64,000 nucleotides of DNA, from the NCBI RefSeq assembly GCF_003149535.1, contig NZ_QGDB01000002.1, positions 731,519 through 795,518 of the forward strand, given 5' to 3'. The translations under genes and the position numbers were made by a program. How positions within the stretch are numbered: position 1 is the first letter of the stretch; every line of letters starts with the position of its first letter. Source of the DNA: Falsochrobactrum shanghaiense. Its GTDB lineage: Bacteria > Pseudomonadota > Alphaproteobacteria > Rhizobiales > Rhizobiaceae. This document shows positions 49,830 through 63,213 of this stretch, in pieces. The notes below the pieces were generated by a model. That model ran no database searches. It saw only the letters and a program-made list of their open reading frames with translations, and had not been told where the DNA came from.

Positions 49830-50253
49830 GTTAACTCACTGAAAATATTCACTTTTTCGATTTAAAGCCACTGCTCGACACGGTGTCCTAATGCCCCGAT
49901 GCAGCATTAATCTCTGCGCAGGCTATTTGTAGCGCGCAAATTCGCGTGGCAACAGATTCACAATGTCAAAGAGCGAACCTGAAGACGTATTGAACGCAAC
50001 TTTAATCCGAGCGCGCTTCAGGAGAAGTTGGTGATCGACAAAATTGCGGCTACTTATTTATCCGAAGCACTTTGTTTAACTAGAAATAACGCAACAATGA
50101 ACACTGCTCGATGTGGGTTGATCCATATTGATACGGGAGAGTGAAACCGACATTTGGATAAGGTTCGAATATCGCCGTACAAAATATAAGGTGGCATTCA
50201 CGGCGAATCTCGATAAGTTACGACTGTAACGGGGGCAAGTGGGGGGATACAGT
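49830..50253 (+). other. Intergenic region between tRNA-Thr and cas3
   Basis: About 420 AT-richer bases contain no gene. A TATAAG -10-like box (50185-50190) lies 64 bases before cas3, but no good -35 is placed for it. GGGGGG directly precedes the cas3 start. No copy of the tRNA 3' end was found in the rest of the window, so an integration boundary is not proven. Confidence 0.5.
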
Positions 50254-52506
50254 ATGCGCTATTTCGCGCATTCGGTAGAACTTTCGGATAAAAACGATTG
50301 GCAAACGCTGCGAGATCATCTTCTCGCTGTCGCTGAACTGGCCGCAAAAATGGCCGCGCCTTTGGGGTTGGAAAAAGCCGCACTTCTTGCGGGGCTATTT
50401 CACGATCTCGGTAAATACACTGCTGCTTTCCAGAGGCGACTGGACGGAAGCGGCCCATCGGTTGACCATTCAACCGCCGGCGCGCATCTGATGCTCAGCG
50501 ATTTCGTGAGCGGGCAAGACAACAAGGCCATCGCCGAATTGATCGCATATTGCATCGCCGGCCATCATGCCGGACTGCCGGATCGTCACACGGACAATGT
50601 GTCCTGCCTCAATCTCCGGCTGAAGCGGCAACTCGAACCGTTGGACGATATTTGGAAGCAAGAGCTGTTTGCGGACACGAAGGGCCTCATGCCTGCCTTT
50701 GCCGCGAATATCGGCAAGCCCGACAAGAAGCGCGCGCCCTTTCAACTTTCCATCATGACCCGGATGCTTTTTTCGTGTCTGGTGGATGCGGATTACAAGG
50801 ACACTGAACATTTCTACCAGGCGCTCGAAGGCTTAAAGCCCGACCGCGACTGGCCTTTGCTCCAGGATTGCCTGCCAAATTTCCTTGCCCAATTCGACGC
50901 CTATATGGCGGCGAAAAGCAGAAGCGACACCGAACTCAATCGCCTGCGTGGCCATATCCTCGACCATGTCCGGTCAAACGCCACACAAGCGCCGGGCCTG
51001 TTCACACTGACCGTACCGACAGGCGGAGGCAAGACGCTAGCCTCGCTTGGCTTCGCATTGGACCATGCCAAAGCGCATGGCCATTCACGCATCATATACG
51101 CCATCCCCTTCACGTCGATCATCGACCAGACTGCGGCGATTTTCCGCGACATTCTGGGCTCGGAAAATGTGCTTGAGCACCATTCCGCAATCGATGAAGA
51201 AAAGACAGGCTCGAAGGCGCGAGAAGGCAAGAGCAAATTGCAATTGGCGATGGAGGACTGGTCCGCGCCCGCCGTCGTGACGACGAATGTGCAGCTTTTC
51301 GAAAGCCTTTTTGCCGCAAAAACTTCGCGGGCGCGCAAGCTCCACAATATAGCGAACAGCGTCATTATATTGGACGAAGCCCAGACGCTGCCGCGCGGAT
51401 TGCTTATGCCGTGCCTGCGCATGCTGGATGAACTTGCGCTCAATTACGGTTGCAGCATCGTATTGTGTACGGCGACGCAGCCGGCCTTCGACCAGCGCAA
51501 GCTTGCCAACGGCCTTCCGCTGGAGGGACGCGAGCTTGCGCCCGATCCGCAAGCCCTTTCATCCGCACTTCGGCGCACTACAATCGTTCAGGCCGGAGAA
51601 ATGAACAACGACGCGCTCGTCGCGGCTTTGCGGGATACGGAGCAAGCGCTTGTTATCGTCAACAGCCGCAAACATGCGCTGGAACTATGGCGGCAGACGA
51701 ATGCGGAAGGTCTTTCCGGCCTCGTGCATCTGACCACGCGGCAATATGCAGCGCACCGACAGAAGATACTCGCCGATGTGCGTGAGCGGTTGAAAGCCGG
51801 AAAACCGTGCCGGGTCATCGCCACGAGCCTGATCGAAGCGGGCGTCGATGTCGACTTTCCGAAAGCCTGGCGGGCGGAAGCCGGGCTGGAACAGATCATT
51901 CAGGCTGCGGGCCGCGTAAACCGCGAGGGCCGGCGACCCGTAGAAGAAAGTATCGTCACTGTGTTTTCCGCGCCCGATTATCCGCCGCCCGCGGAGATCA
52001 AGGGGTTGATCGGCGATCTGGGACGCATGCGCAAGAATCACATCGATCTGCAATCGCTTGAGGCCATCGAGGACTATTTCGGCGAGGTCTATTGGCGGGT
52101 GGGCGCGGACGGGCGCGACCACAAGAAAATCCTCGATGATTTCCGCTTGGGGCCAGCAGGCACGGATTTCGCCTTCCGCACGGTGGCCGACAAATTTCGC
52201 ATGATCGAAAGCGGCATGGAGCCTGTGATTATTCAAACAGATCCGGTTGCAAAAAACGCTGTTGGCAAACTTAAAGCTCAGGAAGCTTCGTCTGGCAGAA
52301 TCGCGCGTGAGTTGCAGACTTATATTGTGCAAGTTCCGCCGAAGGCCCGCGATCTGTTAATCGATAACGGTCACGTCGCCTTCGTTTATCCGGACTTGCG
52401 GGGGGACCAGTTCGCAGTTTTGCAGAATTCGAGTCTCTATAAACCCGATGTTGGATTGCTATGGGAGGATGCGGACTATCTGGCGATAGAAAATTCGTTA
52501 ATTTAG
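50254..52506 (+). CDS. cas3: CRISPR-associated nuclease-helicase Cas3 (type I-C)
   Basis: Cas3 is recruited by target-bound Cascade and degrades the invading DNA. The 750 residues contain an N-terminal HD nuclease (FAHSVELSDK, then AGLFHDLGKYT near residue 45, DHSTAGAHLM and AGHHAGLPD) and a superfamily 2 helicase: Walker A TVPTGGGKTLASL (about 255), the DEAQ box VILDEAQTLPRG, TATQPAF, and motif VI QAAGRVNREGRRP. The active residues are all present. The frame opens at a GTG at 50239, but ATG at 50254 gives the usual MRYFAHS start. The gene is separated from cas5c by 267 bases holding the small-peptide/repeat module. Confidence 0.95.
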   Translation: MRYFAHSVELSDKNDWQTLRDHLLAVAELAAKMAAPLGLEKAALLAGLFHDLGKYTAAFQRRLDGSGPSVDHSTAGAHLMLSDFVSGQDNKAIAELIAYCIAGHHAGLPDRHTDNVSCLNLRLKRQLEPLDDIWKQELFADTKGLMPAFAANIGKPDKKRAPFQLSIMTRMLFSCLVDADYKDTEHFYQALEGLKPDRDWPLLQDCLPNFLAQFDAYMAAKSRSDTELNRLRGHILDHVRSNATQAPGLFTLTVPTGGGKTLASLGFALDHAKAHGHSRIIYAIPFTSIIDQTAAIFRDILGSENVLEHHSAIDEEKTGSKAREGKSKLQLAMEDWSAPAVVTTNVQLFESLFAAKTSRARKLHNIANSVIILDEAQTLPRGLLMPCLRMLDELALNYGCSIVLCTATQPAFDQRKLANGLPLEGRELAPDPQALSSALRRTTIVQAGEMNNDALVAALRDTEQALVIVNSRKHALELWRQTNAEGLSGLVHLTTRQYAAHRQKILADVRERLKAGKPCRVIATSLIEAGVDVDFPKAWRAEAGLEQIIQAAGRVNREGRRPVEESIVTVFSAPDYPPPAEIKGLIGDLGRMRKNHIDLQSLEAIEDYFGEVYWRVGADGRDHKKILDDFRLGPAGTDFAFRTVADKFRMIESGMEPVIIQTDPVAKNAVGKLKAQEASSGRIARELQTYIVQVPPKARDLLIDNGHVAFVYPDLRGDQFAVLQNSSLYKPDVGLLWEDADYLAIENSLI

Positions 52507-52531
52507 GAAATTAACTAGTAGCTGTCTTGAA
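52495..52531 (-). promoter_or_regulatory. Protospacer-like target of the PsiS segment, with TTC PAM
   Basis: On the minus strand, TTC (complement of 52529-52531) is followed by AAGACAGCTACTAGTT. The PsiS segment downstream begins AAGACTGCTACGAGTT: 14 of 16 match, and the two mismatches are at positions 6 and 12, bases that type I Cascade flips out and does not read. The match fades beyond position 18. The site starts at the cas3 stop codon and overlaps the -35 box of the promoter below. Confidence 0.7.
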
Positions 52532-52555
52532 CTTTCTATCAAAGCACCTTACCTT
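52527..52555 (+). promoter_or_regulatory. Predicted promoter of the small-peptide gene (and possibly the cas5c operon)
   Basis: TTGAAC (52527-52532) is spaced 17 bases from TACCTT (52550-52555). The PAM and first seed bases of the PsiS target lie on the -35 hexamer, so a bound Cascade would block RNA polymerase. The promoter would serve the 33-residue peptide first and could read on into cas5c. Confidence 0.55.
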
Positions 52556-52582
52556 ATGGGAAGATGCTCGATGGAGGTTTCT

Positions 52583-52684
52583 ATGCGATTGCCCCCACTC
52601 AAAGAACCGGAGTTCTGGTCTAACGTTGCCATTATAACCGTCTATGTCTTGGTTAAGTTGGTGCGATTGTGTAATAATCCTTGA
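52583..52684 (+). CDS. 33-residue hydrophobic peptide, candidate CreT-type toxin
   Basis: This short frame has a strong Shine-Dalgarno (GGAGG, five bases before the ATG). It encodes a polar N-terminus (MRLPPLKEPEFW), one hydrophobic stretch (NVAIITVYVLVKLVRL) and CNNP, which is the look of a small membrane-damaging type I toxin. In-frame ATGs at 52556 and 52571 are weaker starts. It lies between cas3 and a CRISPR-repeat-like sequence, the position of creT in CreTA modules of other type I systems. No rare tandem Arg codons of the haloarchaeal CreT kind are present, so a membrane mode is more likely. Toxicity is inference only. Confidence 0.5.
   Translation: MRLPPLKEPEFWSNVAIITVYVLVKLVRLCNNP
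52649..52678 (+). promoter_or_regulatory. Predicted promoter of the PsiR-PsiS RNA
   Basis: TTGGTT (52649-52654) and AATAAT (52673-52678) are 18 bases apart and lie inside the end of the small-peptide frame. Transcription would begin about ten bases before the repeat-like sequence. Confidence 0.4.
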
Positions 52685-52760
52685 GGCTCGCCTCGTCGCT
52701 CTCTTTTGATGGCGTGGATAGAAACAAGACTGCTACGAGTTGAAATATTAATGTTAAAAA
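52685..52760 (+). ncRNA. CRISPR-RNA-like guide (PsiR-PsiS), candidate CreA/CreR RNA
   Basis: PsiR (52695-52725) is 31 nt and matches the array repeat at 21 of 32 aligned positions, including the first five bases GTCGC, the block GGCGTGG and the 3' GAAAC. It still folds into the repeat-type stem: CGCTCTC pairs with GATGGCG with one mismatch and a TTTT loop, although most of the stem bases differ from the array repeat. PsiS starts at 52726 and has no second repeat after it, as in known CreA RNAs. Its first 16 bases match a TTC-flanked site at 52513-52528. Cas5c could process the RNA, and Cascade could use it as a partial-match guide that represses rather than cuts. Confidence 0.65.
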
Positions 52761-52770
52761 GGGGCGAGCC
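52685..52770. repeat. 8-bp inverted repeat enclosing PsiR-PsiS
   Basis: GGCTCGCC (52685-52692) and GGCGAGCC (52763-52770) are exact complements and bracket the PsiR-PsiS segment. The right arm abuts the purine tract AAAAAGGGG that serves cas5c, so pairing could hide the cas5c ribosome site or define the ends of the RNA. Confidence 0.5.
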
Positions 52771-52773
52771 ACC

Positions 52774-53442
52774 ATGCCCTATGGTGTGAAGTTAAAAATT
52801 TCTGGCGATTACGCCTGCTTCACCAGACCTGAACTCAAGGTCGAGCGTGTAAGCTATGACGTTCTGACGCCATCGGCGGCACGAGGCATTCTCGACGCAA
52901 TCCACTGGAAACCGGCTATCCGCTGGATCATCGACGCGATCCATGTGCTTGAGCCGATCCGTTTTCAATCGATCCGCCGCAACGAAGTTGGCGGCAAGAT
53001 ACCGGCAAGCAAGGTCAAGAGCGCCATGAAGCGCGGCGATCTCGAAGGCCTGCAACTGCTGGTAGATGAAGATCGGCAACAGCGGGCTTCGACGGTGCTG
53101 GTCAAGCCCGCCTATATCATCGAAGCGCATTTCGAAATGACCGGAAAGGCGGGACCGGACGACAATGAGGGCAAGCATCTCGACACTTTCAACCGGCGCG
53201 CGGCACGCGGGCAATGCTTCCACCAGCCATGCCTCGGTACGCGAGAATTCGCTGCGCATTTTGAACTGCTCGACCCCCATGCACCTCTGCCTGTCGCGAT
53301 AGACGAAACCCGCGACCTCGGACTTATGCTCTGGGACATCGACCATCAGGCGCAAGGAAAACCTGCGCTGTTTTTCCGCGCCAAGCTGGAAAGCGGCGTC
53401 ATGAAGGTGCCCTCCCCTCATTCGGGGGAGATTCTGAGATGA
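52774..53442 (+). CDS. cas5c: CRISPR-associated Cas5c (Cas5d), type I-C
   Basis: In type I-C, Cas5c replaces Cas6 as the endonuclease that cuts the pre-crRNA at the repeat stem base, then stays on the 5' handle in Cascade. The 222 residues start PYGVKLKISGDYACFTRPEL, the usual Cas5 beta strand, and include SYDVLTPSAARGILDAIHWK and RQCFHQPCLGTREFAAHFEL near the C-terminus. AAAGGGG lies about ten bases before the ATG. Its stop overlaps the cas8c start (ATGA). It would also be the enzyme processing the PsiR-PsiS RNA encoded just upstream. Confidence 0.93.
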   Translation: MPYGVKLKISGDYACFTRPELKVERVSYDVLTPSAARGILDAIHWKPAIRWIIDAIHVLEPIRFQSIRRNEVGGKIPASKVKSAMKRGDLEGLQLLVDEDRQQRASTVLVKPAYIIEAHFEMTGKAGPDDNEGKHLDTFNRRAARGQCFHQPCLGTREFAAHFELLDPHAPLPVAIDETRDLGLMLWDIDHQAQGKPALFFRAKLESGVMKVPSPHSGEILR

Positions 53443-55193
53443 GCATTCTCGCTTCACTGGTCAGGGCCTATGGGCGCCTGCCAGACGCCCCGCCGTTCGG
53501 CTATTCGATGGAAAAGATCGGTTTCATTATCGGTCTTAACGAAGACGGCAGCGTCGCCAGCGTGACCGATTTGCGCGATGGAACCGGCAAGAAGAAGCAG
53601 CCGCCGATGTTGCTGGTGCCGCAGCCGGTCAAGCGTACGGCTGGCATTGCACCGAATTTTCTGTGGGACAAGACATCCTATGTTCTTGGCGTTACAGCCG
53701 GTGAAGGCAAGCGTACAGCAGACGAACACGCCGCCTTCGTTAAACGACATGTGGAAGCTCTAGAGGGCACGCAGGATGCGGGACTTCGCGCACTCCTGCT
53801 CTTTCTGAAAAACTGGTCGCCCGAATATCTTCTGCCACCTGAATGGTCCGAGGATTTGAAGGACCAGAATGCTGTTTTTGCGCTGGAAAGTGAGCGGCGG
53901 CAACAGCTTTTGCATGAGCGTGAAGCAGCCGAACAGCTTTGGGAGAAGCAATCTTCGGCGGCGGACAAGTCGGCAAAGATTTGTCTTGTGACTGGAGAAA
54001 CGGGTCCCGTTGCCCGTCTGCATCCCTCGGTCAAGGGCGTCTGGGGCGCGCAATCTTCCGGTGCGGCGCTTGTTTCCTTCAATCTCGACGCTTTCGCATC
54101 CTATGGTCACAAGCAGGGAAGCAACGCTCCCATATCGGAATTGGCAGCCGCTAAATATACAACCGTCCTCAATCACTTCCTCGAACGTGACAGCAGCCAC
54201 CGCGTGCAGATCGGCGACACGTCGACCGTATTCTGGGCGGATGCATCGAATGTGGAAGCCGCGAACGCCGCTGAAAGCTTCTTCGCCGCCCTTATCGATG
54301 ATAATGATAAGGCTGCGGACGAAGAAGCCACGAAGACGATCGGCATCCAGATCGAACGCATCCGCAGGGGCGACTCCTTAAGCGAAGTCGAGCCAAAGCT
54401 CGCCGACAAGGTCGATTTCTATGTTCTCGGGCTCGCGCCCAATGCGGCGCGGCTTTCGATCCGCTTCTTTTACGAGGGCAGTTTCCAGACGCTGACCAGG
54501 CGCTACCAGCGTTTCGTCTCGGAAATGCGCGTCGAGCCGCCGCCGCGCGACGATTACCCGCCGCTCTGGCGCTATCTGGTCGAACTGGCCGTGCTCCGCA
54601 AGCGGGAGAACGTGCCGCCTAATCTCGCCGGAGACTGGATGCGTTCGATCCTCGCCGGTACGAATTACCCGCTGACGCTTCTGTCCACCACGCTGATGCG
54701 TATCCGCGCCGATGGCGAGGTGAACGCCTTGCGGACCGGCATCCTCAAAGCTGTTCTGATGCGAAACTACAAGATGGAGGTTCCCGTGGCGCTCGATCCG
54801 GAGGAACGAAATAAAGGCTACCTGCTAGGCCGGCTTTTCGCGGTCTATGAAGAAATCCAGCGCGCCGCGCTTGGCAACAATGTCAATGCGACGATCAAGG
54901 ACAAATTCTACGCATCCGCATCGGCCACGCCGCGCAAGGTCTTTTCGATGCTCGACGCCGGTTCGGCGAACCATCTGTCCAAAATCGGAAAGCAAAGCAA
55001 GGGCCGGCAGATCAATCTGGTGCGATTGCAGGAAGAGATCATGGATCTGATGGAGCCGGGAAAGGACCCGTACCCATCTTCTTTTTCGGCCAACGAGCAG
55101 GCTCTTTTCGGCCTTGGCTACCATCACCAGCACAGTGAATTCTTCAAATCGCGCAAGACCGCCGACACGACTGAAACCGGAGACAACGCCTGA
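53439..55193 (+). CDS. cas8c: CRISPR-associated Cas8c (Csd1), type I-C large subunit
   Basis: This 584-residue large subunit of the I-C Cascade recognises the TTC PAM. Csd1 landmarks are ILASLVRAYGRLPDAPPFGY at the N-terminus, VKRTAGIAPNFLWDKTSYVLG, KICLVTGETGPVARLHPSVKG in the middle (a degenerate zinc-ribbon position), AARLSIRFFYEGSFQTL, and the C-terminal LFGLGYHHQHSEFF. Type I-C genes of this kind often also make the small subunit Cas11c from an internal start in the C-terminal third; internal methionines exist here, but I cannot assign one. Start and stop overlap cas5c and cas7. Confidence 0.94.
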   Translation: MSILASLVRAYGRLPDAPPFGYSMEKIGFIIGLNEDGSVASVTDLRDGTGKKKQPPMLLVPQPVKRTAGIAPNFLWDKTSYVLGVTAGEGKRTADEHAAFVKRHVEALEGTQDAGLRALLLFLKNWSPEYLLPPEWSEDLKDQNAVFALESERRQQLLHEREAAEQLWEKQSSAADKSAKICLVTGETGPVARLHPSVKGVWGAQSSGAALVSFNLDAFASYGHKQGSNAPISELAAAKYTTVLNHFLERDSSHRVQIGDTSTVFWADASNVEAANAAESFFAALIDDNDKAADEEATKTIGIQIERIRRGDSLSEVEPKLADKVDFYVLGLAPNAARLSIRFFYEGSFQTLTRRYQRFVSEMRVEPPPRDDYPPLWRYLVELAVLRKRENVPPNLAGDWMRSILAGTNYPLTLLSTTLMRIRADGEVNALRTGILKAVLMRNYKMEVPVALDPEERNKGYLLGRLFAVYEEIQRAALGNNVNATIKDKFYASASATPRKVFSMLDAGSANHLSKIGKQSKGRQINLVRLQEEIMDLMEPGKDPYPSSFSANEQALFGLGYHHQHSEFFKSRKTADTTETGDNA

Positions 55194-56143
55194 TGACCAC
55201 GCTCGCCAACCGCTATGACTTCGTCCTCATCTTCGATGTCACCAACGGCAATCCCAATGGAGACCCCGACGCCGGCAATCTCCCGCGCCTCGACCCCGAA
55301 ACCAATCACGGCCTTGTTTCCGACGTCAGCCTCAAGCGCAAGATCCGCAATTATGTCGAACTGGCCCGTGCAGGCCAGGAGGGCTTTCACATCTATGTGC
55401 AGGAAGGCGCGATCCTGAACGAAAAGCACCGCCAGGCCTATAAGGCGCTGCGCCCCGGCGACCAAAAAGTGGAAAAGGAGGCCAAGCTCAATCCAAAGGA
55501 TGATGCGGAAGCCATCCAGTTGCGCGATTTCATGTGCCGGAATTTCTTCGACGTGCGCACATTTGGAGCAGTCATGTCGACCGGCATTAATGCCGGACAG
55601 GTCAAAGGCCCGGTGCAACTGACTTTCGCAAGCTCCGTCGAGCCGATCGTTCCGGTGGAAATCTCCATCACCCGCATGGCGGCGACCAACGAGGCAGAAA
55701 AGAAGCAGAAGACGGAAGGCGACGACGCGAATGAGCGGATCGATAATCGCACCATGGGCCGCAAGCATATCGTGCCCTACGGCCTCTATGTCGCGCATGG
55801 CTTTATCTCCGCCAAATTCGCCGAGCGCACCGGCTTTTCGGAAAGCGACCTCGATCTGCTTTTCGAGGCGCTGACGACCATGTTCGAGCATGACCGATCT
55901 GCCGCCCGCGGCGAGATGACGACGCGCAAGCTGATCGTGTTCAAACATGAAAATGCGCTCGGCAACGCGCCCGCCGGAAAGCTCTTCGAGCGCGTCGGCA
56001 TCGGTCGCAATGTGGACGGAGAATTCCGCACCATTGACCAGCGTCTCGACAATCTGCCGCCGGCCCGCAAATTTTCCGACTACATGGTGACGATCGACCG
56101 CGACAATCTTCCCGAAGGCGTCGAGATCATGGAAAAGCTGTAA
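55193..56143 (+). CDS. cas7c: CRISPR-associated Cas7 (Csd2), type I-C backbone
   Basis: Cas7 forms the helical backbone that holds the crRNA spacer. At 316 residues it has the Csd2 pattern: RYDFVLIFDVTNGNPNGDPD, LVSDVSLKRKIRNYVELAR, FFDVRTFGAVMSTGINAGQV, and PYGLYVAHGFISAKFAERTG. The backbone thumb flips out every sixth crRNA base, which is the reason mismatches at positions 6 and 12 of PsiS matter. The ATG overlaps the cas8c stop by one base; cas4 starts three bases after its stop. Confidence 0.95.
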   Translation: MTTLANRYDFVLIFDVTNGNPNGDPDAGNLPRLDPETNHGLVSDVSLKRKIRNYVELARAGQEGFHIYVQEGAILNEKHRQAYKALRPGDQKVEKEAKLNPKDDAEAIQLRDFMCRNFFDVRTFGAVMSTGINAGQVKGPVQLTFASSVEPIVPVEISITRMAATNEAEKKQKTEGDDANERIDNRTMGRKHIVPYGLYVAHGFISAKFAERTGFSESDLDLLFEALTTMFEHDRSAARGEMTTRKLIVFKHENALGNAPAGKLFERVGIGRNVDGEFRTIDQRLDNLPPARKFSDYMVTIDRDNLPEGVEIMEKL

Positions 56144-61400: not shown

Positions 61401-62505
61401 AGGCAATATTGTCGCCTCCTACGCGGAGGCGTGGTTTGAAACGTAGCGCTGGTTTTTATCATTTGTCGATCGACGGGGTCGCCTCCTACGCGGAGGCGTG
61501 GTTTGAAACATTGCCAAGTCCGTCTTTAACGACCAACAGCTTTTGTCGCCTCCTACGCGGAGGCGTGGTTTGAAACATCCTGTCGATCCCGGTATTCTTC
61601 ATGGGTGAGGGTCGCCTCCTACGCGGAGGCGTGGTTTGAAACACGGTATCCAGTCCATCACAACGCCTCGCCTGCCTGTCGCCTCCTACGCGGAGGCGTG
61701 GTTTGAAACCACAACATCAATCCGTCGCATCGATGAACGCGCGGTCGCCTCCTACGCGGAGGCGTGGTTTGAAACCGAAGCTTTCGACAAGTTTGCCAGG
61801 CACGGTCTTGTCGCCTCCTACGCGGAGGCGTGGTTTGAAACTCCGATCACCCGGCGCATGAAATCCATCGCGGCCCTGTCGCCTCCTACGCGGAGGCGTG
61901 GTTTGAAACTTTGCCAGCGCCACGCCCGTTGTGTCACCCTCATGTCGCCTCCTACGCGGAGGCGTGGTTTGAAACTGATTTATGCGGTGTTCGCAATTAT
62001 CGGATTTTTGTCGCCTCCTACGCGGAGGCGTGGTTTGAAACGCTTTCAACATTTTTCATGCGCTCATCGTAACGCGTCGCCTCCTACGCGGAGGCGTGGT
62101 TTGAAACGCGGCAACGACGCAAGATCCGCTGCCCGAAAATAGTCGCCTCCTACGCGGAGGCGTGGTTTGAAACATCCTTGTATTCGGCTTGTGCTTTCGG
62201 CGACATGTCGCCTCCTACGCGGAGGCGTGGTTTGAAACGGTATTGGCATGTGGTCCTGGCTCCGTTGTTCCGGTCGCCTCCTACGCGGAGGCGTGGTTTG
62301 AAACCAACTAACTCCTCCTGCTGGCAAGCCGGTCAGAAAGTCGCCTCCTACGCGGAGGCGTGGTTTGAAACGTGTATTTATCCCATAACCATTGCAACGT
62401 CCCGATCGTCGCCTCCTACGCGGAGGCGTGGTTTGAAACTTTGCCAGCGCCACGCCCGTTGTGTCACCCTCATGTCGCCTCCTACGCGGAGGCGTGGTTT
62501 GAAAT
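58424..62505 (+). CRISPR. Type I-C CRISPR array, 62 repeats and 61 spacers
   Basis: The 32-nt repeat begins GTCGCCTCCTACGCGGAGG and ends CGTGGTTTGAAAC; CGCCTCC/GGAGGCG gives a 7-bp stem with a 5-nt loop. Repeat starts are 65-69 bases apart throughout, so spacers are 33-37 nt. Repeats are nearly perfect. The first two end in GAATT instead of GAAAC, and the last ends in GAAAT. Spacer 53 (61910-61943) and spacer 61 (62440-62473) are identical. The many Arg- and Pro-rich open frames across the array are artefacts of the repeat. The targets of the spacers could not be searched. Confidence 0.99.
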
Positions 62506-63213
62506 TGGTGGCGTAGTGATGTAACCTCATTTTTCGATGCTTCGACCGCCAACGACAATCGCCGCTTCCGTCAGATTGATGCTTTATGCGCCGCCAGCTT
62601 TGCGATGAAGGCGGAAGCCGCCAAGGAAGCGGGGGCGCTTGGTTTCATAGCGCGGGCAATGGTGCAGGCGACCATGCCACACAGCAAGGCTGACGGTAAT
62701 GAATTTACCTGCACCAATGGCGCGTACACACTAAGTATGCTTGCCCCGTCGCGCATCGGCCTTCCCTATGGCAGCATTCCGCGCCTTTTGTTGGTTATTT
62801 GACCACCGAGGCGGTGCAGCAGAAACAGCGGGAAATCGTCCTCGGTACAAGCCTTAGCCGCTTTATGTCGGAATTGGGATTGGACGCGGCGGGCGGACGT
62901 TGGGGTTCTATTCCACGCCTGCGCGATCAAGTGACACGCCTTATGGCGTGCTCGATCTCTTGTACATGGGAGAGCGAACACGCCCTTTCTATTGGAGAAT
63001 ATAAGTATCGCAGACAGTGCGAATTTATGGTGGAAGCCAAAATCGCCTGAACAGGGTGCTTTGTGGGAAAGCACGGTAACGCTTTCTGAAAAATTCTTCC
63101 GCGAAGTTACCGAAAACCCAATCCCGATTGACCTGCGCGCGCTCAGGACCGGACAGCACTTCTATCTTAGGTATGTGACTGGTCATAATGGGCACATTAC
63201 TCCTAACACTTAA
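62506..63213 (+). pseudogene. Decayed plasmid replication initiator (RepA, RepA_C family)
   Basis: Three stretches in alternating frames together give a RepA_C-type protein. The first (to 62801) has EAGALGFIARAMVQATMPHS and RIGLPYGSIPRLLLV. The second (about 62799-62995) has LTTEAVQQKQREIVLGTSLS and LDAAGGRWGSIPRLRDQV. The third (about 62995-63213) has NLWWKPKSPEQGALWESTVT and PIPIDLRALR. Frame shifts lie near 62790 and 62995, and the sequence then loses similarity. There is no start codon: the frame runs back into the last CRISPR repeat, so the 5' part is missing. It is a remnant of plasmid DNA beside the array. Confidence 0.8.

Follow-up and report, generated by a model that had tools for sequence, protein, structure and literature searches.

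What is encoded in the 267 bases that separate the cas3 stop (52506) from the cas5c start (52774) in the type I-C CRISPR (clustered regularly interspaced short palindromic repeats) locus of Falsochrobactrum shanghaiense? We address this question in a 64,000-nucleotide stretch of contig NZ_QGDB01000002.1 (hereafter the window; coordinates count from its first letter). In order, the gap holds a predicted promoter, a Shine-Dalgarno sequence, a 33-codon frame, a degenerate CRISPR repeat (psiR), and a spacer-like tail (psiS), which pairs with the predicted promoter of the small gene. With a probability of about 0.7, we read this arrangement as a Cascade-repressed toxin-antitoxin module of the CreTA type in a type I-C system. 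An earlier note, made from the letters of the window, had proposed a CreTA/CreR-type module. Its core, RNA-guided repression of the promoter of the open reading frame (ORF), is strongly supported by sequence comparison, and CreTA is favored over CreR, in which a guide represses cas genes; the parts that stay conditional are the toxicity of the peptide and the harm that a cell would probably suffer on losing Cascade.

The pairing itself is plain. Bases 1–16 of psiS match the minus strand from 52528 to 52513 at 14 positions, with mismatches at 6 and 12, and the site is preceded by TTC, the type I-C protospacer adjacent motif (PAM) according to the consulted part of PMC8406640; all of this agrees with the earlier note. 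Guide positions 6 and 12 are unpaired in Cascade, as stated for type I-B in the portion of PMC8501985 at hand. Positions 1–5 and 7–11 match this PAM-flanked site at the small gene's predicted promoter, and when scored over positions 1–17 without 6 and 12, the pairing reaches 14/15. Among 20,000 dinucleotide shuffles of 52357–52720 (364 bases), no TTC-flanked site reached 13/15, and the best score, 12, occurred three times. Across the 3.84-Mb genome, a search for TTC followed by the psiS pattern (6 and 12 free, up to three mismatches) found exactly one perfect place; the others were psiS itself at two mismatches, which lacks the PAM, and 11 places at three mismatches. A backwards control pattern found a similar number of places (14, against 13 for the real pattern).

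The sequence next to the guide carries the mark of a CRISPR repeat. Outside the array, psiR is the only place in the window that matches the 3'-end pattern of the repeat at 14/14, the next best being four places at 12. To this extent the diverged repeat described earlier stands, but its foldable stem is weaker than first described: a fraction of 0.26 of shuffled sequences fold as well as the psiR hairpin by itself, which therefore does not stand out from them. A second repeat beside the window's guide was looked for and not found; the degenerate repeat and the spacer-like guide are present.

To place the module among relatives, we gathered 145 loci by cas5c similarity and kept 115 distinct alphaproteobacterial type I-C loci, after dropping L001 (the same place as L002), L081 and L136 (cas3 not found), and 27 duplicates; some of the loci share descent. 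Their gaps range from -1 to 2165 nucleotides: 45 of the 115 lie between 200 and 999, and the other 70 are either shorter than 200 or the 2165-nucleotide outlier L082, which was excluded from the pairing scan, leaving 114 gaps. With a match of at least 12/14 at the repeat's 3' end taken as psiR, we find it in 33 of the 114, namely in 29 of the 45 gaps of 200–999 nucleotides and in 4 of the 69 below 200; the threshold is loose, given the four chance places that reach 12 in the window outside its array, and a few of the 33, chiefly these last 4, may be chance. The guide has a TTC-flanked partner site (at least 11/15, positions 6 and 12 unscored) within the gap of its own locus in 25 of these 33 cases, compared to 13 of 1544 comparisons with the gaps of other loci. 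Guide letters differ between loci while the pairing with the own promoter site is kept, the kind of paired change that the earlier note suggested looking for in an alignment of such gaps.

Across the 25 pairs, position 6 is mismatched in 19 and position 12 in 20, positions 1–5 and 7–11 in 0 to 3 each, and positions 18–24 in 16 to 21 each, where random sequence would give about 19. Because the mismatch profile is near random there, positions 6 and 12 are free and pairing fades after about position 17; the pairs were picked by matches outside 6 and 12, and the low mismatch elsewhere is partly selection. The case named beforehand as speaking against the module, a psiR kept with its match lost, occurs in 8 of the 33 loci. 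Three with gaps below 200 nucleotides (L012, L055 and L088) and L103 (246 nucleotides) carry no ORF of either family described below; in L054 the frame is truncated; and in L071 and L106 the match emerges once one base is permitted to be missing (19–20/25). L062 is a true exception.

The modules come in two layouts. In the cas-strand class (10 loci: the window, L018, L058, L133, L062, L041 and L119, with L020, L009 and L054 having short or shifted frames), the site lies near the end of cas3, followed by a hydrophobic ORF of 30–36 codons and by psiR-psiS near cas5c. The 33-codon frame and its GGAGG, as first described for the window, are confirmed; related hydrophobic ORFs occur in L018, L058, L133 and L062, and similar ones in L041 and L119. 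The inverted class lies on the opposite strand (12 loci with an ORF, plus L049 and L103 without), with the site towards cas5c, then the ORF, and psiR-psiS towards cas3. Its ORF of about 26 residues is basic at its start, closes with a conserved ELDLEP-like sequence, and is unrelated to the window's family. Differences at the three codon positions are 0.46/0.38/0.69 in the window family (four sequences, 195 codon comparisons) and 0.41/0.17/0.62 in the inverted family (seven sequences, 546 comparisons; the alignment of this family covers 10 of its 12 ORFs). Because of this pattern, both families are judged to be under protein-level constraint. The best 17-residue hydropathy computed from the sequence is 1.87 for the window ORF and 1.81–2.79 for six relatives. 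A short peptide with a single hydrophobic stretch is typical of type I toxin-like proteins. In profile searches of 346 and 387 genomes, one of which covered the ORF family alone, each model found one strong match: for the first model it was the window itself, and for the second a position in genome G614 some 100 bases away from a cas5c gene. The remaining two matches per search (E 0.002–0.004) are at chance level. The strong matches of both models occur only beside I-C genes.

The earlier note had placed the target on the -35 box of the small gene's promoter. A strict scan of the gap for sigma-70 promoters and terminators found neither, but a looser score picks out TTGAAC-N17-TACCTT (3.5% of shuffles as good), and its place is constant in relatives. 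In the cas-strand class, the best promoter starts 56–63 bases before the ATG in all eight loci scored (of 10). The TTC falls within the -35 box in four of the seven loci with a site (the window, L018, L133 and L020) and just upstream of it in the other three (L058, L041 and L119). In the inverted class, the promoter lies at 54–59 in 7 of 10 loci scored, with the site just upstream.

A second element frames the guide. An outer inverted repeat encloses psiR-psiS in 6 of 10 cas-strand loci (shuffle fractions 0 to 0.046, the window's being 0.046), and in five of these six its 3' arm ends no more than 5 bases from the cas5c start; the inverted-repeat scan found none in L009, L054, L041 and L119. 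Fold z scores run from -1.79 (window) to -3.54, and an alignment of five sequences shows changes on both sides in 6 of its 11 pairs. Until psiR is cleaved by Cas5c, this stem may keep the start of cas5c masked.

These elements suggest how the module would operate. Cas5c would cut the transcript at psiR, and Cascade loaded with psiS would shut off transcription by binding the TTC-flanked site, which covers the -35 box. Pairing confined to roughly guide positions 1–17 would prevent cutting by Cas3. Loss or inhibition of Cascade would lead to synthesis of the hydrophobic peptide, which would harm the cell.

By anatomy and evolution, the module appears to work like known CreTA systems: it sits within a type I cas locus that has Cascade genes. 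As far as the consulted portion of PMC8501985 goes, it resembles the proven I-B CreTA of Halobacterium hubeiense in that one promoter serves a small mini-ORF gene and creA and is auto-repressed, guide positions 1–5 and 7–11 pair, the TTC PAM lies in the complement of a promoter element, and positions 6 and 12 are unread. That system differs in being archaeal and I-B, with two repeats, Cas6 processing, and an ORF of six codons that acts through its RNA, by sequestering a rare tRNA; the module here is I-C, with one repeat found, Cas5c processing expected, 33 codons, and protein-level constraint. The I-F CreTA of Acinetobacter, as described in the available part of PMC10097628, is likewise bacterial and placed in the gap after cas3, with a partial guide match plus PAM, an ORF with a Shine-Dalgarno sequence, and a strain without the gap content. 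Unlike here, its guide diverges from the toxin gene, it has two repeats, its target lies downstream of the promoter, and its RNA, not a peptide, is toxic. The codon-position pattern points to constraint on protein, although conserved mini-ORFs also accompany RNA toxins according to the same excerpt (PMC10097628). CrePA, in the accessible text of PMC12737573, has a guide-repressed protein toxin, as the module here would; CreP typically has a KilA-N domain there, which the small ORFs here lack.

Several observations weigh against the CreTA reading. Single promoter scores are weak: 0.5–48% of shuffles are as good in the window's class (0–68% in the inverted class). The window-class promoter also points at cas5c, and the outer stem reaches the cas5c start, so that a role in cas expression is conceivable. 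L062 keeps a family ORF yet pairs poorly, and L020 pairs perfectly but its frame no longer reads as family. The small ORFs match no Pfam model (E up to 1, KilA-N included), and tblastn against 72,556 plasmid records turned up no relative of the peptide encoded in the window. Finally, a footprint of addiction is not apparent: Cascade genes are broken in 0 of 19 intact-module loci and in 5 of 82 without psiR (p 0.58), in a sample where many loci end before cas7 and all were selected by an intact cas5c.

The alternative that survives best is autoregulation of the CreR kind, in which the guide would repress an in-gap promoter driving cas5c-cas8c-cas7, with the ORF as a leader frame. CreR is likewise a crRNA-like (CRISPR RNA-like) guide that partly matches a promoter in the cas locus, and it represses cas genes, as far as the consulted parts of PMC12737573 and PMC13131331 describe it (type I-C figures in the latter in connection with anti-CRISPR proteins). 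In the window, orientation permits such a role, since the ORF, psiR and cas5c lie on one strand with no terminator found in between, and in 5 of the 10 cas-strand loci the outer stem extends over the region where cas5c starts; the creTA gap of H. hispanica also bears a promoter for downstream cas genes in the available text of PMC9458426. Two loci, L142 and L143 (gap about 200 nucleotides), have a guide and a TTC site pairing at 12/15 and no listed ORF of at least 15 codons, and their guide could be a CreR-like regulator of cas genes. What speaks for CreTA over CreR is the inverted class: it occupies the same gap on the strand opposite the cas genes, and its promoter cannot drive them. In addition, the small ORF behind the promoter is conserved as protein, and 65 of 115 I-C loci have a short gap without psiR. 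As the sole explanation CreR is weakened by the inverted class and ORF conservation, and we keep it as a rival that we consider unlikely.

Slightly less probable again is a small protein under Cascade repression that serves some purpose other than addiction, for example a helper induced when anti-CRISPR proteins block Cascade; CrePA is described as switched on in this situation in the accessible text of PMC12737573. Protein-level constraint, two unrelated protein families under one control scheme, and cassette-like spread would all suit such a protein; on the other side, a small hydrophobic peptide under tight repression suits a toxin, and neither KilA-N nor any other Pfam domain is present. 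An inert relic, that is a decayed mini-CRISPR with a leftover promoter match, is very improbable: decayed members exist (L009 and L054, whose frames are short and whose guides pair poorly), the hairpin of psiR in the window is weak, and the same-genus locus L003 has a 39-nucleotide gap without psiR, but the window's ORF, Shine-Dalgarno sequence, PAM and pairing are all intact.

Returning to the CreTA reading, the distribution of the modules bears on how they are inherited. On a quick cas5c tree, 10 changes are required to explain the window class (10 rows) and 14 to explain the inverted class (14 rows); shuffled labels need no more than this, and the supported branches force at least 4 and at least 9, respectively. 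Near neighbors differ, as do the window and L003, or L041 and L046. The modules look like exchangeable cassettes that are gained and lost, as judged from this tree.

The inverted class shows a further pattern. Of the 13 minus-strand modules that have a site, seven (L005, L010, L024, L026, L039, L060 and L066) reach 9–10 matches out of 10 between guide bases 19–23 and 25–29 and the promoter only when the base opposite position 18 and/or 24 is absent from the DNA; L060 uses position 24 alone, and in L066 the base opposite position 12 is missing too. Each is significant by shuffling (p ≤0.001), the straight register scores 2–6, and the best cross-locus control is 8, reached once among 156 pairs. 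Totals over 25 positions are 24 (L005, L010, L066), 23 (L024, L026, L060) and 21 (L039), compared to 16–21 for alternative phases in these loci. When deletions may fall at any position, L005, L010, L024 and L026 have 18 and 24 among their best places and L060 has 24; L066 has 24 with 11/12 and 16–18, and in L039 the deletions are less well placed. The block letters differ between loci, and therefore the pairing was kept while the sequence changed, among loci that share descent. None of 12 plus-strand modules, the window among them, reaches 9; in the window, blocks 4 and 5 match 4/10 (p 0.88), and we rejected this register there. To our knowledge, such skip-register pairing has no precedent. 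As a joint proposal, tentative and more doubtful than the reading of the window, alphaproteobacterial I-C loci would hold exchangeable addiction cassettes whose small-protein toxins are of at least two unrelated kinds. In one class, the guide would pair in consecutive five-nucleotide blocks with DNA that lacks the bases opposite flipped-out positions 18 and 24; Cascade would then read a compressed target (up to 24/25 pairs) and hold it firmly enough for the toxin to be silenced, with no R-loop that licenses Cas3 to cleave the cell's own DNA.

The window contains a complete type I-C operon (cas3-cas5c-cas8c-cas7-cas4-cas1-cas2), followed downstream by a CRISPR array with at least 60 copies of one repeat-spacer family. 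In this array, one spacer with its flanking repeats is present twice, at 61878–61977 and 62408–62507 (99% over 100 nucleotides). An AT-rich palindrome, GTTAATTT-AGG-AAATTAAC, lies at the cas3 stop (52497–52515) and overlaps the far end of the protospacer. An Rfam identity for the module was rejected, as its two matches were both at chance level.

Features of the cas3-cas5c gap and its flanking genes in the window
Feature	Coordinates	Strand	Basis
cas3, upstream flank of the module	50239..52506	+	NCBIfam cas3_core and cas3_HD above cut-off
Target site, 34-nucleotide protospacer (pairing part 52513-52528, 14/16 bases)	52495..52528	-	sequence match, relatives, shuffles
Predicted -35 box TTGAAC of the small gene	52527..52532	+	looser promoter score; absent from strict scan
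TTC PAM, complement of GAA within the -35 box	52529..52531 (read 52531-52529)	-	sequence
Predicted -10 box TACCTT	52550..52555	+	looser promoter score
Shine-Dalgarno GGAGG	52573..52577	+	sequence
Hydrophobic ORF, 33 codons, creT-like, putative toxin	52583..52684	+	frame, relatives, codon constraint
Outer stem 5' arm, closes psiR-psiS	52685..52694	+	inverted repeat, fold
psiR, degenerate CRISPR repeat	52695..52725	+	repeat 3'-end pattern, relatives
psiS guide, bases 1-16 pair with site; putative 3' end	52726..52759	+	sequence match
Outer stem 3' arm, overlaps purine-rich stretch before cas5c start	52761..52770	+	inverted repeat, fold
cas5c, enzyme expected to process psiR	52774..53442	+	TIGR01876
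cas8c and cas7, remaining Cascade genes	53439..56143	+	family match

The census also revealed other gap contents. Nine loci with long gaps (L006, L016, L025, L057, L070, L072, L083, L105 and L109) carry a frame with a VYKxxWPNGKIYVGSD-like start, which recalls GIY-YIG nucleases; this label is motif-based, and Pfam gave nothing in the two scanned. On plasmids, the gap of locus H1 holds a GIY-like frame; by annotation, the H2 gap measures about 70 nucleotides and the H5 gap about 111. Two further loci have related psiR modules, L095 with a 59-residue frame and L107 in a divergent arrangement with the site directly before psiR. In L039, L054 and L003, cas3 lies in two frames, which may be sequencing error, while cas5c (and cas8c and cas7 where covered) is open; in L039, the module and Cascade genes are intact.

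We do not claim a first report of a CreTA-like module in type I-C; I-C cases may already appear in the 2023 survey of Shmakov and others on crRNA-like elements. In the literature that we reviewed, the characterized CreTA modules are I-B (archaeal) and I-F, and I-C is a common subtype. The naturally varied guide-promoter pairs form a data set, available now, for asking which bases matter when Cascade binds but no cutting follows, and the skip-register pairs pose a testable structural question, whether Cascade can bind DNA without bases at the flipped-out positions. If our reading is true, an I-C family with two unrelated proteins in opposite orientations would mean that the guarding of Cascade by a guide-repressed small gene has evolved or been passed on more than once and that different toxins can fill the role.

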